This document shows positions 9,476 through 25,334 of a DNA stretch of 35,171 nucleotides, piece by piece (the first letter of the stretch is position 1; every line of letters starts with the position of its first letter). The translations under genes were made by a program, and so were the position numbers. Origin of the DNA: a virus; the IMG/VR virus record IMGVR_UViG_3300023118_000021, positions 1-35,171 of that record. One strand, given 5' to 3'. The notes under the pieces are model-generated. The model did no database searches and was not told the origin of the DNA. It saw nothing but the letters and a program-made list of their open reading frames with translations.

Positions 9476-9505
9476 GCTACCACCCGCGTATTGACTGACC
9501 ACTAG

Positions 9506-12178: not shown

Positions 12179-12445
12179 TCAGAGCGGCAGGAAGGGCAGC
12201 GGTATCGCGTGCCGACGATGGCAGCTATCACAATTGGGTCGAAGCGTGCCGGCGTTGACGTGATACTCCGCGAATCGCTTGTGCAAGTCGCAGAACAGCT
12301 CGACGAAACCACACGCCCCGCACCGAATCGACCAGGCCGCCGGCGCCTCGCATACCTCTACTGCGCACGGCAGTTCCTGGTCGATGGACGCGAACAGCTT
12401 GCGCAGTTGCTCGCTTCGGCTCGGCGTTTCCGTCGTGGTGCTCAT
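12179..12445 (-). CDS. Small Cys/His zinc-binding-type protein
   Basis: An 88-aa protein starting at ATG 12445 in an ATGA overlap with the preceding gene. It has paired Cys/His motifs: 'CAVEVCEAPAAWSIRCGACG', 'CDLHKRFAEYH' and 'CDSCHRRH', enough ligands for two zinc sites. Small proteins like this are common between the terminase and portal genes of actinophages, but no function is known to me. It could be a DNA-binding accessory factor. Confidence 0.7.
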   Translation of the reverse strand: MSTTTETPSRSEQLRKLFASIDQELPCAVEVCEAPAAWSIRCGACGFVELFCDLHKRFAEYHVNAGTLRPNCDSCHRRHAIPLPFLPL

Positions 12446-13026
12446 GGCCGGAACGGGGTGAGGCACTGGGGGGTTGCTTCGCTGACCGGCATCGAGAAGC
12501 ACTCGGCGGGGAGGCATGCCGTGTCCCCGCTCTCGTCATGGCCGGTCGCCTGACTGCCCGCGGGGCACGTCGTCTGACCGCCACCGGACGGAGCGACGGT
12601 ACTGCCGCCAGTCGCGGTGCGCTTCGTCGGCGCCTTGGCGGCGTTCGCGGCCTGTTCCGCGGCAACGCGGGCAGCCTCGGCAGCGGCAGCCTGTTCGGCA
12701 GCGATGCGCGCGGCCTCGGCCTGGCGGTCGGCTTCGGCCTTCGCCACGGCGGCCTGGTAGTCGACCTCGTGCTGCGCGGCGATGCGGGCATCCTCGGCAG
12801 CCTCGGCCTCGGCGAGCTCGTCGGCGGCGGTCTCGAAACGCACCTGATAGGCGCGCTCTTCGGCGCGCTGTTCGGCGGCAACGCGCTCGTTGTTCGCGTG
12901 AATCGCGGCACTGGTCCCGGCCGCGGCAGCCACCCCGAGCGAGAGGGCGAGCACGATGGCGATGCGGCGGCGGTAGTCGTGGGGGCCGTGCTGGCGGCCG
13001 GCGAGGATTTCGGCTGGTGTTCTCAT
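12442..13026 (-). CDS. Membrane-anchored Ala-rich coiled-coil protein
   Basis: A 194-aa protein. A positively charged start (~1-23, ending 'DYRRR') precedes one membrane helix 'IAIVLALSLGVAAAAGTSAA', so the rest should lie outside the membrane. Then comes a long Ala/Glu/Arg coiled coil (~45-130), a Thr/Gly/Ser linker and a C-terminus with four cysteines ('CPAGSQATGHDESGDTACLP', 'ECFSMPVSEATPQCL') that may form disulfides. ATG 13026 begins seven bases after a strong operator-bearing promoter, implying a leaderless mRNA. Its own promoter inside the late region and its envelope location suggest a host-interaction gene, for example exclusion or envelope modification; this is inference. Confidence 0.75.
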   Translation of the reverse strand: MRTPAEILAGRQHGPHDYRRRIAIVLALSLGVAAAAGTSAAIHANNERVAAEQRAEERAYQVRFETAADELAEAEAAEDARIAAQHEVDYQAAVAKAEADRQAEAARIAAEQAAAAEAARVAAEQAANAAKAPTKRTATGGSTVAPSGGGQTTCPAGSQATGHDESGDTACLPAECFSMPVSEATPQCLTPFRP

Positions 13027-13063
13027 GCGCCTAAACCTAGTGGCTGGCAACTAGGTTTGTCAA
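13026..13063 (-). promoter_or_regulatory. Operator promoter A (leftward, leaderless)
   Basis: Minus strand: -35 TTGACA (13063-13058), 18-base spacer, -10 TAGGTT (13039-13034), seven bases, ATG 13026. The spacer holds the dyad CTAGT-8-ACTAG (13037-13054), extended to 9-bp arms AAACCTAGT/ACTAGGTTT (13033-13058). No ribosome site precedes the ATG, so the transcript should be leaderless. Confidence 0.8.
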
Positions 13064-16675: not shown

Positions 16676-16703
16676 GCCTTCTAGCTTAGTGGCTGACAAC
16701 TAA
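16675..16703 (-). promoter_or_regulatory. Operator promoter B (leftward, leaderless)
   Basis: Minus strand -10 TAAGCT (16688-16683), seven bases, ATG 16675. The dyad TTAGT-8-ACTAA (16686-16703) sits in the position where promoter A has its operator, with the same centre GGCTGACA. The -35 is poor, so activity may need an activator or be weak. Confidence 0.65.
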
Positions 16704-21588: not shown

Positions 21589-21873
21589 TCACTCGGTGAC
21601 GCCCTGCTCAATGAGCTCATCACGCACGGCGGCGAGCAGTACGAGCAGCGCATCGCACGCGGCCAGGGTCTTCGGGAAGTAGACGCTCGAGTATGGCTCG
21701 AGGGTGAGTGAGACCTCGGTACGGTTGACCTTGGCGATGGCACGCTTGCGGCTAATGTGGGCCATGCCGTCGAGCGGAGCCTTGAGGGTGGTATTGCGCT
21801 TGGCCGGGGTGATCTTCGTGTCAACCTCGACAGACGGGGCATCGGGCACGATACCCCGAACACCGCCGGCCAT
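21589..21873 (-). CDS. Second gene of regulator operon, unknown
   Basis: A 94-aa protein whose ATG shares one base with the stop of the ribbon-helix-helix gene (TGATG). It contains 'VEVDTKITPAKRNTTLKAPL', 'HISRKRAIAKVNRTEVSLTL' and a helical C-terminus 'TLAACDALLVLLAAVRDELI'. No family recognised. Strict pairing with the DNA-binding gene suggests a cofactor, antagonist or second subunit; a toxin-antitoxin arrangement is possible, with the ribbon-helix-helix protein as antitoxin, but the sequence does not resemble known toxins. Confidence 0.65.
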   Translation of the reverse strand: MAGGVRGIVPDAPSVEVDTKITPAKRNTTLKAPLDGMAHISRKRAIAKVNRTEVSLTLEPYSSVYFPKTLAACDALLVLLAAVRDELIEQGVTE

Positions 21874-22097
21874 CACTTCACCTCGCGCGCGTCGGTCTCG
21901 AGGTTGAACACCTCGAGCTCGGTGATGCGGCCACCGTCAAGCGCGTCAGCGAGCAAGACGCCGAGCTGCAAGAGCCGGCGCGCGGCCGCGCTCTTCGAGG
22001 TGTCGTCGCGCGCGGCGGCGTCCGCCTCGATGCGGTCATTGAGCTCGTCGCCGATCTGGCATACGAGCTGATTCGGATAGAGGATGGGGCGGCCCAT
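21873..22097 (-). CDS. Ribbon-helix-helix DNA-binding regulator
   Basis: A 74-aa protein. ATG 22097 is chosen for its AAAGG site; an upstream in-frame start at 22145 lacks support. 'NQLVCQIGDELNDRIEADAA' then 'SKSAAARRLLQLGVLLADAL' is the ribbon-helix-helix pattern: a strand that inserts in the major groove and two dimerising helices. It lies between two operator copies (promoters D and E), so autoregulation and control of the other operator promoters is the natural hypothesis. No other transcription regulator was found in the genome. Confidence 0.75.
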   Translation of the reverse strand: MGRPILYPNQLVCQIGDELNDRIEADAAARDDTSKSAAARRLLQLGVLLADALDGGRITELEVFNLETDAREVK

Positions 22098-22192: not shown

Positions 22193-22221
22193 AGGTTAGT
22201 GGTCAGCAACTAGATAAGCAA
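22193..22221 (-). promoter_or_regulatory. Operator promoter D (leftward, for RHH operon)
   Basis: Minus strand -35 TTGCTT (22221-22216), 17-base spacer, -10 TAACCT (22198-22193). Operator dyad TTAGT-8-ACTAG at 22196-22213. The transcript would start near 22187 and carry a ~90-base leader before the regulator ATG. Confidence 0.65.
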
Positions 22222-22244: not shown

Positions 22245-22274
22245 TTGACTCGGCTAGTGGTCGGCAACTAGGTT
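22245..22274 (+). promoter_or_regulatory. Operator promoter E (rightward, surface protein)
   Basis: -35 TTGACT (22245-22250), 18-base spacer, -10 TAGGTT (22269-22274). Operator CTAGT-8-ACTAG at 22254-22271. Start expected near 22281, with a GAAGGGA ribosome site before ATG 22314. Divergent from promoter D with 23 bases between the -35 boxes, including a CCCC-TTTC-GGGG mini hairpin. Confidence 0.78.
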
Positions 22275-22313: not shown

Positions 22314-23477
22314 ATGCGCACCACTATCAAGGCCGGCCTCGCCGCCGCGGCCGTCGTCGGGCTCATCGCCCTCGGCGCCCCGCTTACCGCGAGTGCCGAC
22401 GAAACCGCCACGACCGAAGAGGTGACATCATCGACAAGCACACCGACCACGGACGCCCCGTCGACTTCGCCAGCCGAAGCCCCCGGGTCAGATGGTTCGG
22501 CGGGACTCACTACCCCGGCCACCGAGCCAAGCTCGTCACCGGAAGCGACCCCGACACCTTCGACGATCACCCCCTCGACCGATACCTCGACCTCGTCGAC
22601 GACGCCGCCCGTGACGCCGCCGACGCGTACTGTAGAAATCGTCTGGGGGATGCCGAACGGCGGGACGCCTGACCACGTCACGTGGCCGCAGACGTACAGC
22701 CCCGACGGCACCACCGCACCGGGCACCTGTTCCCAGATCGACACCTACCTCGCGACCGAGGCGCCGCGCTTCTACGCCGACGGCAAGCTCGAGCAGGGCG
22801 AGGACTACGAGTCGAAGACCCAGCGCGGCGCCATCTCGTGGCGATTCGTCTGCGTCCCGCCCGTTGTCGTCACCCCGACCGGACCGGTGACCATCACGGC
22901 GCCGACCCTGGTGCCGACCTCGCCGACGTGCGACGCCGACGGTTCGCTGCCCTTCCTGGGCAACCCCGCCGCGCAGAACCCGAACGGGTACGAGTTCCCC
23001 GGTCAGGGCTTCCGCGTCTACATCGCGCCGGCGTTCACCGGCCCCGGCACTTACGTCGCGACCATTCAGAAGGTCGGCCCCGGTTTCGACCCGGCCTTCC
23101 CGAAGGGCACCAAGGTCGTCGGCGCGACGAGCCAGACGTTGACCGTGCTGCCGAAGACCGGCACGCAGTCGACGGATGCCAGCGCCCCGTGCTACGTCAC
23201 ACCCCCGGTCGAGCCCCCCGTCGTCGTGCCGCCCGTGACGGTCCCCGAGGCGCCCGTCACACCGGCCGTCACGCCGGTCGTCGAGACCGCTCCCGTGATC
23301 GCCGAGAAAGTTGCAACGGTCACGCCTGACGCGCTCGCCTACACGGGGACCGGGCAGCTTCGCGTACTGCTCTTCGTGATGATCGGTCTGCTGCTCGTTG
23401 GGTCGGGCGTCGTCGCGGTCGTCGCGCCGATCATGCGGAAGCCGAACCCGCGCTACCGCCGCACGATGGTCGACTAG
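22314..23477 (+). CDS. Secreted, sortase-anchored surface protein
   Basis: A 387-aa protein. Residues 1-29 are a clear signal peptide with Ala-x-Ala end ('LIALGAPLTASADE'). A Ser/Thr/Pro stalk (~30-105) is followed by a folded region with four cysteines (~107-290), a Pro/Val-rich stretch, and a C-terminal sorting signal: LAYTG (341-345), hydrophobic helix (~349-371), then 'MRKPNPRYRR'. LAxTG is the motif used by class E sortases of high-GC Gram-positives. A second motif LPKTG (279-283) lies internally without an adjacent membrane helix. The product should be fixed to the host wall, perhaps blocking receptors or superinfecting phage. It has its own operator promoter and terminator. Confidence 0.85.
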   Translation: MRTTIKAGLAAAAVVGLIALGAPLTASADETATTEEVTSSTSTPTTDAPSTSPAEAPGSDGSAGLTTPATEPSSSPEATPTPSTITPSTDTSTSSTTPPVTPPTRTVEIVWGMPNGGTPDHVTWPQTYSPDGTTAPGTCSQIDTYLATEAPRFYADGKLEQGEDYESKTQRGAISWRFVCVPPVVVTPTGPVTITAPTLVPTSPTCDADGSLPFLGNPAAQNPNGYEFPGQGFRVYIAPAFTGPGTYVATIQKVGPGFDPAFPKGTKVVGATSQTLTVLPKTGTQSTDASAPCYVTPPVEPPVVVPPVTVPEAPVTPAVTPVVETAPVIAEKVATVTPDALAYTGTGQLRVLLFVMIGLLLVGSGVVAVVAPIMRKPNPRYRRTMVD

Positions 23478-23492
23478 CTAGACCCCCACAAC

Positions 23493-23541
23493 GGAACCGC
23501 CGACCGGCTGGCATTGCGCCCCGGTCGGCGGTTTCTTTGTG
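23493..23541 (+). terminator. Intrinsic terminator after surface protein gene
   Basis: Arms 23493-23507 and 23521-23535 pair over 15 bp (core AACCGCCGACCGG / CCGGTCGGCGGTT) with a 13-base loop, followed by TTTCTTTG. A textbook Rho-independent terminator that isolates the surface gene from promoter F a few bases on. Confidence 0.9.
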
Positions 23542-23545
23542 CGCC

Positions 23546-23613
23546 TTGACTTACCTAGTTGTCAGCCACTAAGTTTGATATGTCAGCCACCGCAACCCCG
23601 AAAGGTCAGCCAC
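23546..23613 (+). promoter_or_regulatory. Operator promoter F with phased 9-mer repeats
   Basis: -35 TTGACT (23546-23551), 18-base spacer, -10 TAAGTT (23570-23575), operator CTAGT-8-ACTAA (23555-23572). The 9-mer GTCAGCCAC occurs three times at 23561, 23582 and 23605, about two helical turns apart; the last copy abuts ATG 23615. The segment is a near-duplicate of promoter G. Confidence 0.8.
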
Positions 23614-24990: not shown

Positions 24991-25283
24991 CCGACGAAAC
25001 CAGCGCGGCATTCGCCGCGGCGGCATCGTGGCGACGAGAGGTACGGGCCGAGTTCGAGGCGGTGCGCGAGGCGGCGTATGAGATGGCCGAGACCGAGACC
25101 AACGGGCGCATGCTCAACCGTCGCGGCCTCGACGCCGGCGTCGACCCGTGGTCGCTGTTCACTCACAACCGCGCCTACGCCCACGCCTACGCGAGCGAGG
25201 AACTGCTCGACCATTGGCAGACCTACCGGCGCCCGACGTTCCTCGATTACGAGGCCCAGACTTTTCCCGGTCTCGCCTCTTGA
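24987..25283 (+). CDS. Early helical protein, unknown
   Basis: A 98-aa protein, ATG 24987 in an ATGA overlap. Helical first half ('SWRREVRAEFEAVREAAYEM'), then 'NRRGLDAGVDPWSLFTHNRA'. The stop TGA lies inside the -35 box TTGACT of promoter G, so the operon ends exactly where the next begins. No terminator separates them. Function unknown. Confidence 0.65.
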   Translation: MTDETSAAFAAAASWRREVRAEFEAVREAAYEMAETETNGRMLNRRGLDAGVDPWSLFTHNRAYAHAYASEELLDHWQTYRRPTFLDYEAQTFPGLAS

Positions 25284-25334
25284 CTTACCTAGTTGTCAGC
25301 CACTAGGTTTAGATGAGTCAGCCACCGCAACCCC
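25280..25334 (+). promoter_or_regulatory. Operator promoter G (duplicate of F)
   Basis: -35 TTGACT (25280-25285), 18-base spacer, -10 TAGGTT (25304-25309), operator CTAGT-8-ACTAG (25289-25306). The 26 bases from the -35 to mid -10 are identical to promoter F, and an 18-base stretch of the leader (25317-25334) equals 23582-23599. Two copies of GTCAGCCAC lie 22 bases apart. Confidence 0.82.

Follow-up and report, generated by a model that had tools for sequence, protein, structure and literature searches.

A mosaic family of surface proteins in Microbacterium phages and their kin, predicted to be anchored by the host sortase

The window, that is the whole stretch of DNA analysed here, corresponds to a virus record 35,171 bases long; the virus is one of soil bacteria and apparently lytic. 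The terminase shares 57-59% identity with those of OscarSo, Isperia and Wyvern, three Microbacterium phages of 32-34 kb that have the same gene order and possess counterparts of the window's terminase, portal, capsid, tail, endonuclease VII, exonuclease and primase genes. Between the primase gene and a homologue of OscarSo gp44, in the early region and among the replication genes, lies an ORF that reads from an ATG at 22314 to a stop at 23477 and is preceded by the ribosome-binding-like stretch GAAGGGAA. The gene, the parts of its product and the regulatory elements connected with it are the following, the grounds for each being given in brackets:

13036-13063, minus strand: promoter/operator of the same kind as that of the surface gene, before a putative secreted or membrane-anchored protein encoded within 12442-13050 (pattern search)
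21873-22097, minus strand: divergent gene of a ribbon-helix-helix-like regulator (likeness to OscarSo gp47)
22197-22212, minus strand: a further copy of the operator palindrome, facing the divergent regulator gene (palindrome search)
22245-22274, plus strand: promoter of the surface gene, with an operator palindrome between -35 TTGACT and -10 TAGGTT (sequence, pattern search)
22314-23477, plus strand: gene of a surface protein of 387 aa, of sortase-anchored type (ORF reading)
22314-22397, plus strand: signal peptide, residues 1-28, ending in ASA before D (hydropathy 2.3, AxA at 26)
22398-22631, plus strand: Ser/Thr/Pro-rich stalk, residues 29-106 (sequence)
22632-22868, plus strand: proximal module, residues 107-185, with Cys139 and Cys180 (sequence comparison)
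22896-23198, plus strand: distal module, residues 195-295, with Cys206 and Cys293, predicted to be beta-rich (comparison and structure prediction)
23199-23333, plus strand: Pro/Val-rich stalk, residues 296-340 (sequence)
23334-23348, plus strand: LAYTG sorting motif, residues 341-345 (motif rule)
23364-23474, plus strand: membrane helix, about residues 351-374, and basic tail RKPNPRYRRTMVD (helix hydropathy 2.8)
23487-23541, plus strand: terminator hairpin (folding energy)
23546-23573, plus strand: the same promoter/operator, before the next early genes, from 23615 on (pattern search)
25280-25307, plus strand: the same promoter/operator, before 25353 on (pattern search)

As a preliminary description of this locus had stated, a signal peptide, a Ser/Thr/Pro stalk and a LAYTG motif followed by a helix and a basic tail are all present in the protein, as read from sequence, hydropathy and a motif rule; the signal peptide and the sorting signal were judged by hydropathy and motif rules of our own. 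The basic tail includes RKPNPRYRR, and one Arg stands between LAYTG and the membrane helix. When the rule for a sorting signal (motif, helix and basic tail) was applied to the 340 stop-to-stop frames of at least 60 aa in the window, it selected that of the surface protein only, while it selected none of the corresponding frames of OscarSo (0/303), Isperia (0/319) and Wyvern (0/295); shuffled versions of the surface protein satisfied it in 1 of 20,000 cases. The same description had spoken of a four-Cys domain. The four cysteines are there, but they belong to two modules, C139/C180 and C206/C293, rather than to a single domain.

The promoter of the surface gene reads TTGACT-CGG-CTAGTGGTCGGCAACTAGG at 22245-22272, with the operator placed between -35 and -10 as would be expected of a repressor site. 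Its palindrome, TAGTKGNCRGCMACTA, has 16 matches in the window, on both strands, when up to 3 mismatches are allowed, compared with a mean of 1.86 and a maximum of 6 in shuffled sequences. The composite pattern TTGACW-NNN-C-operator-RG, which was derived from the same four sites that it scores, is matched without mismatch at 13036 on the minus strand and at 22245, 23546 and 25280 on the plus strand, and had no match in 100 shuffles even at 3 mismatches. The hairpin at 23487-23541 has a predicted energy of -40.8 kcal/mol (z -5.2), and none of 200 shuffles was equally stable; it was not among the results of the simple terminator scan, and the sigma-70-type rule of the promoter scan likewise did not pick up the surface-gene promoter. 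The divergent ORF, whose start was picked by eye as an ATG with GAAAGG upstream, aligns with OscarSo gp47, annotated as a ribbon-helix-helix protein, with a local score of 77 against 55 for the best of 500 shuffles, and Pfam recognises neither of the two. The earlier claims that the gene has an operator promoter of its own and a strong terminator, and that it lies beside a regulator, are thus borne out by the sequence. We infer that the ribbon-helix-helix-like protein binds the operator and represses the promoter.

OscarSo has one operator site (2 mismatches) beside its ribbon-helix-helix gene, and no operator beyond chance was found in Isperia and Wyvern. The IMG/VR contig L006, which encodes a relative of the surface protein, contains no operator within its 11,786 bases, so that this relative would be regulated otherwise. 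In the window, further operator copies at 9489-9504 (2 mismatches) and 16687-16702 (no mismatch) coincide with or precede the starts of genes on the minus strand, a position that suggests that the regulator may control both early and late promoters. The minus-strand ORF at 12442-13050, headed by the same operator promoter, encodes a small, putatively signal-anchored protein that has Cys at one end; in OscarSo, Isperia and Wyvern the corresponding place, between terminase and portal, is taken by a small gene of membrane or hypothetical type, and the product of the window ORF may be another envelope protein under the same regulon. Neither RNA families near the surface gene nor tRNAs in the window were found.

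No relative of the surface protein was detected in OscarSo, Isperia or Wyvern (0/3), and since these are the three nearest sister phages, the gene is accessory. Two ORF calls in these sisters, Isperia gp42 (L020 26951-28198) and Wyvern gp43 (L021 28652-29335), look overlong by eye, with their true starts inside.

The surface protein matched no family beyond chance in Pfam, PHROGs, PADLOC or NCBIfam, and a sequence search of the PDB gave no match. Among its relatives, in contrast, models of sortase-dependent anchors gave signals. The NCBI model NF058582, of a LAVTG sortase-dependent anchor, scored above its cut-off in 3 of the 23 phage records covered by a six-frame search in which 3 of 14 control genomes gave below-cut-off signals; it had sub-cut-off matches at E<=0.05 in 5 further records, two more sub-threshold places in Pumpernickel that were off target, and no match to the window protein. 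With hmmscan, the three top proteins scored 26.2, 25.7 and 24.8 bits, just short of the cut-off of 27. The NCBIfam model SCO1860_LAETG matched 3 of 9 relatives weakly (best 7e-6, 25 bits against a cut-off of 200 bits). PADLOC defence models matched none of nine family members; exclusion proteins are seldom similar to one another in sequence. The structure prediction proposed in the preliminary description reached a mean pLDDT of 83 for the distal module alone, but a two-module model was not confident in its proximal part, where pLDDT stayed below 50 across model residues 1-88. Comparison with solved structures gave best Z values of 3.7 (383 chains) and 3.1 (294 chains), with no match standing out, and the only viral structure model at E <0.001 was a Microbacterium phage protein. 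The predicted fold of the modules is not claimed as new.

The distal module is widespread among phages of one host genus. Of 50,697 phage records, 88 contain it, every one from a Microbacterium phage and at one place each, with an identity of 80-90% in 32 records, 60-80% in 53 and below 60% in 3; likewise, among 23 whole records, 12 have a single copy and none has two. Its carriers belong to the genera Krampusvirus, Quhwahvirus, Mementomorivirus, Neferthenavirus and Rogerhendrixvirus, and the neighbourhood of the gene differs among them: it follows a DNA polymerase gene in Krampus, precedes a helicase in Mercedes and a sigma factor gene in Terij, Quhwah and Ariadne, and in Nicole72 and Megan shares with other genes the interval from lysin A to RusA. 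In a megablast search of phages with positions 12000-35171 of the window, 38 records matched, and all 20 matches listed start at the DNA of the distal module, which points to exchange at the level of the module.

Other pieces of the ectodomain led to further relatives in Gina, Teamocil and Magritte (133 kb), in Big4, A3Wally, Zooman and Pumpernickel (186-195 kb), in FuzzBuster, SM23 and the Micrococcus phage Kurnik, and in the IMG/VR contigs L006, L007, L015 and L027. The proximal module was found outside the window only in L006 and, cut by the contig end, in L007; used alone against phage records, it had no match at E up to 10. The L006 carrier, whose protein shares both modules with that of the window, lacks a terminase like that of the window. 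FuzzBuster gp74, compared with viral contigs, had no confirmed match, and a search of plasmids gave none for the window protein or Big4 gp260. The family alignment had 50 pattern matches in 84,980 bacterial and archaeal genomes, none of them confirmed, under strict patterns by which distant relatives could be missed; the phage primase had 12 pattern matches in the same genomes, again with none confirmed. A bacterial origin of the modules was considered and set aside, no relative having been confirmed among the 84,980 genomes with these strict patterns.

Twenty proteins were compared in full, to the exclusion of the L007 protein, truncated by its contig end, of L008-L010, IMG/VR copies of the Krampus/Quhwah kind that also end in LAQTG, and of the remaining records. 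At the C-terminus of 19 of the 20, LA-[YQEAT]-TG, helix and basic tail are intact. In the twentieth, from SM23 (L024 1960-3897), the frame breaks right behind LATTGG, and the helix and an RRRQA tail follow in a neighbouring frame, either through a sequencing error or as a recently broken anchor. A signal peptide stands at the start of 18 of the 20 when an ATG downstream of the annotated start is used for Terij, Leaf and Megan, and in the remaining two, Pumpernickel and SM23, one appears when translation is begun upstream or internally. The annotated start of Pumpernickel gp243 (L025 2152-3978) appears too late, and the open frame upstream of it holds a clear signal peptide. Given that the relatives were reached through matches of the ectodomain, the recurrence of the sorting signal among them counts as independent evidence.

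Between these ends, all-against-all BLASTP of the 20 proteins revealed a patchwork. The window protein has both modules in common with L006 (75% identity over 187 aa) and only the distal module with Krampus (83% over 88 aa). In Magritte the distal module is joined to modules of the Zooman/Big4 kind, whereas Gina has the N-terminal part of Nicole72 (80% over 230 aa) and lacks the distal module. Kurnik (L022 2536-3912), also without it, is 62% identical over about 200 aa (202 aa with Big4) to Big4, Zooman and L027, and 63% identical over 99 aa to FuzzBuster; its identity to Big4 suggests exchange between phages of different host genera. Several of the longer members contain repeated modules. In Big4 gp260 (L017 1459-3714), an Excalibur calcium-binding domain (above the Pfam cut-off) lies between the ectodomain and a LAATG anchor. 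By eye, the proximal module resembles in its register the modules with WPQ found in Magritte, Zooman, Big4 and L027, but the likeness did not reach significance in profile comparisons (probabilities of 0.5% and 0.2%), and BLASTP gave nothing. Judged from these sequences, the parts that would serve display (signal peptide, stalk, LA-x-TG, helix and basic tail) are constant, and ectodomain modules are shuffled between phages that are otherwise unrelated.

Sortase domains were detected in none of 22 phage records (the window and 21 others, of which two are IMG/VR records that may be fragments), and neither were those of tyrosine integrases (PF00589) or resolvases (PF00239); the control searches gave a signal in 3, 14 and 10 of 14 genomes, respectively. 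With no sortase of the phage's own, anchoring would be performed by the host. Likewise, with no integrase or resolvase, integrative lysogeny is unlikely, and carrier phages that integrate, as in lysogenic conversion, were not found among the 22 records. Quhwah has an annotated ParB-like partition gene, and the Quhwah group may have a plasmid-like, extrachromosomal lysogeny.

Taken together, the anatomy of the window protein, the LA-x-TG ends of 19 of the 20 relatives and the records recognised by NF058582 (with the hmmscan scores just below its cut-off) strongly support the secretion and class-E-type sorting that the preliminary description had predicted. The functions that it suggested, namely superinfection exclusion, receptor masking or altered adhesion, are plausible. 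Display at the surface, diversification of what is displayed, one copy per genome and the lack of a detected integrase make competition at the cell surface the best explanation of the family. Accordingly, our leading interpretation is that these are mosaic, phage-encoded and host-sortase-anchored surface proteins, made in lytic growth, that occlude or alter the adsorption site, and we find ourselves evenly poised between accepting and doubting it as a whole. The anchoring itself is well supported by the sequences; the biological effect is one that we infer, and an effect on adsorption in particular is conjectured from ecology and diversity.

A protein anchored in this way might instead serve the adhesion or aggregation of infected cells, or their attachment to surfaces, and so raise the local spread of the phage. 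The layout of stalk, beta-rich module and anchor resembles that of a fibrillar adhesin, the repeated modules of several longer members would fit such a role, and the solved structures weakly matched by the two-module model include the fimbrial adhesin PsaA (73 aligned at rmsd 3.4, Z 2.8) as well as a Rib domain (65 aligned at rmsd 4.2, Z 3.7). That no structural match reached Z 5 means little, but a lytic phage would gain little from the adhesion of a cell that is soon to lyse, and no known adhesive domain was recognised in the window protein, so we regard this role as unlikely.

The anchored protein could also stabilise or modify the envelope, by delaying premature lysis, by resisting lysis from without, or by loading the host sortase and thereby displacing host surface proteins. 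Such a function would agree with the retention of the anchor in all 20 compared proteins (out of frame in SM23) and with the fact that the phage protein would share its sortase with the substrates of the host. Diverse and exchanged ectodomains would, however, be unneeded in a mere sortase decoy or brace, and we consider a role of this kind decidedly improbable.

As regards the mode of attachment, the exported protein might be held by its C-terminal helix alone, without a cut by sortase. Many relatives are annotated as membrane proteins, and the Arg between LAYTG and the helix of the window protein could be taken in the same sense. Against this stand the 19 of 20 members in which LA-x-TG occurs at the expected spacing from helix and basic tail, and the three records of 23 that passed the sortase-anchor model in the six-frame search (hmmscan just below), which leave us strongly inclined to disbelieve attachment by the helix alone. 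Finally, we judge it very improbable that the product is a decoration or tail-associated protein of the virion whose N-terminal helix and LAYTG-helix-basic tail serve neither export nor sorting. What speaks for it are weak matches of relatives to the PhiKZ capsid decoration model gp35 (2 of 9 relatives, best 1.1e-4; Kurnik 0.019) and to a PHROG 'virion structural protein' (1 of 9, 4.5e-4), which probably reflect Pro/Glu-rich low-complexity stretches. Against it, the gene lies outside the structural block, both signals persist across the family as the middle changes, and the distal module never occurs twice in one genome, for example in a tail gene, all in keeping with the earlier statement that this is not a virion gene.

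Returning to display by the host sortase as the favoured reading, the course of events may be pictured as follows. The infected host would export the surface protein by the Sec pathway, and its class-E-type sortase would cut LAYTG between T and G and link the protein to peptidoglycan before lysis. Two small two-Cys modules would then project on Pro/Ser/Thr stalks from the wall of the phage-producing cell, where, by occluding or altering the site of adsorption, they would keep rival phages, or progeny of the phage itself, from attaching to cells already infected or to wall debris. Going one step further, we tentatively propose, while leaning somewhat towards doubt, that lytic phages of Microbacterium and its kin share and exchange a modular display kit, with an unchanging anchor that depends on the host sortase and carries another set of small modules in each phage. 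The infected cell would thereby receive a new, covalently attached coat in the course of a single lytic cycle, to which rival phages or own progeny would no longer adsorb; this would be superinfection exclusion that depends on sortase, with an arms race over the ectodomains as its driver. If this holds true, phages without a detected integrase hijack the host sortase to rebuild the cell surface during infection, and the swapped modules amount to natural domain-exchange experiments, in a group in which the hosts and many phages are named isolates of the laboratory. It would also provide a likely role for genes that dozens of Microbacterium phages carry under labels such as hypothetical, membrane protein or glycosyltransferase. 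Public annotation of family members indeed ranges from hypothetical to membrane protein and even glycosyltransferase; labels of glycosyltransferase or DnaE-like polymerase are attached to Quhwah gp85, Paschalis gp81 and Potty gp57 in public records, and the first of these (L005 4259-5584) is, by its sequence, a sortase-anchored surface protein.

Among the matches listed in literature searches on phages, sortase or LPXTG, and superinfection exclusion, titles and abstracts mentioned no such phage proteins, and a term search of the main text of a survey of Microbacterium phages (PMC7302621) found neither 'sortase' nor 'superinfection'. While wall-anchored proteins and exclusion proteins are each known, a mosaic, host-sortase-anchored family in apparently lytic phages was not met with in the titles, abstracts and text searched.

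The closest parallel in anchoring is found in Actinobacteria. In those of soil, class E sortases act on LAXTG signals (PMC5148588), and their substrates, namely the chaplins ChpA-C described there (PMC5148588) and the SCO1860-type LAETG proteins of NCBIfam, have, like the window protein, a signal peptide, LAXTG, a helix and a basic tail. In contrast to these substrates, the present proteins are encoded by phages that have no sortase of their own, and the window protein is scored by neither SCO1860_LAETG nor NF058582. In function, the nearest counterparts would be superinfection-exclusion surface proteins from phages of Gram-positive bacteria, such as the lipoprotein Ltp of TP-J34 and Sie2009, which are lipid- or membrane-anchored and mostly encoded by prophages. 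They resemble the window protein, as judged from its sequence signals, in being made by a phage, exported and displayed on the infected cell, where the protein would act on later phages; they differ from it in that the window protein has a sortase signal, stalks and a mosaic ectodomain, and its family is carried by phages without a detected integrase.

The fibrillar adhesins of bacteria combine an anchor, a stalk and an adhesive tip. This layout (PMC9210967) recurs in the window protein together with the C-terminal anchor, whereas the window protein is phage-borne, has a short ectodomain and shows no recognised adhesive domain. GamR, an LPXTG protein of the host that serves Bacillus phage Gamma as receptor (PMC4113786), offers a further likeness as a wall-anchored protein that governs phage adsorption. 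Yet GamR is a receptor encoded by the host, while the window protein is a product of the phage, and the effects to be expected of the two on adsorption are opposite.
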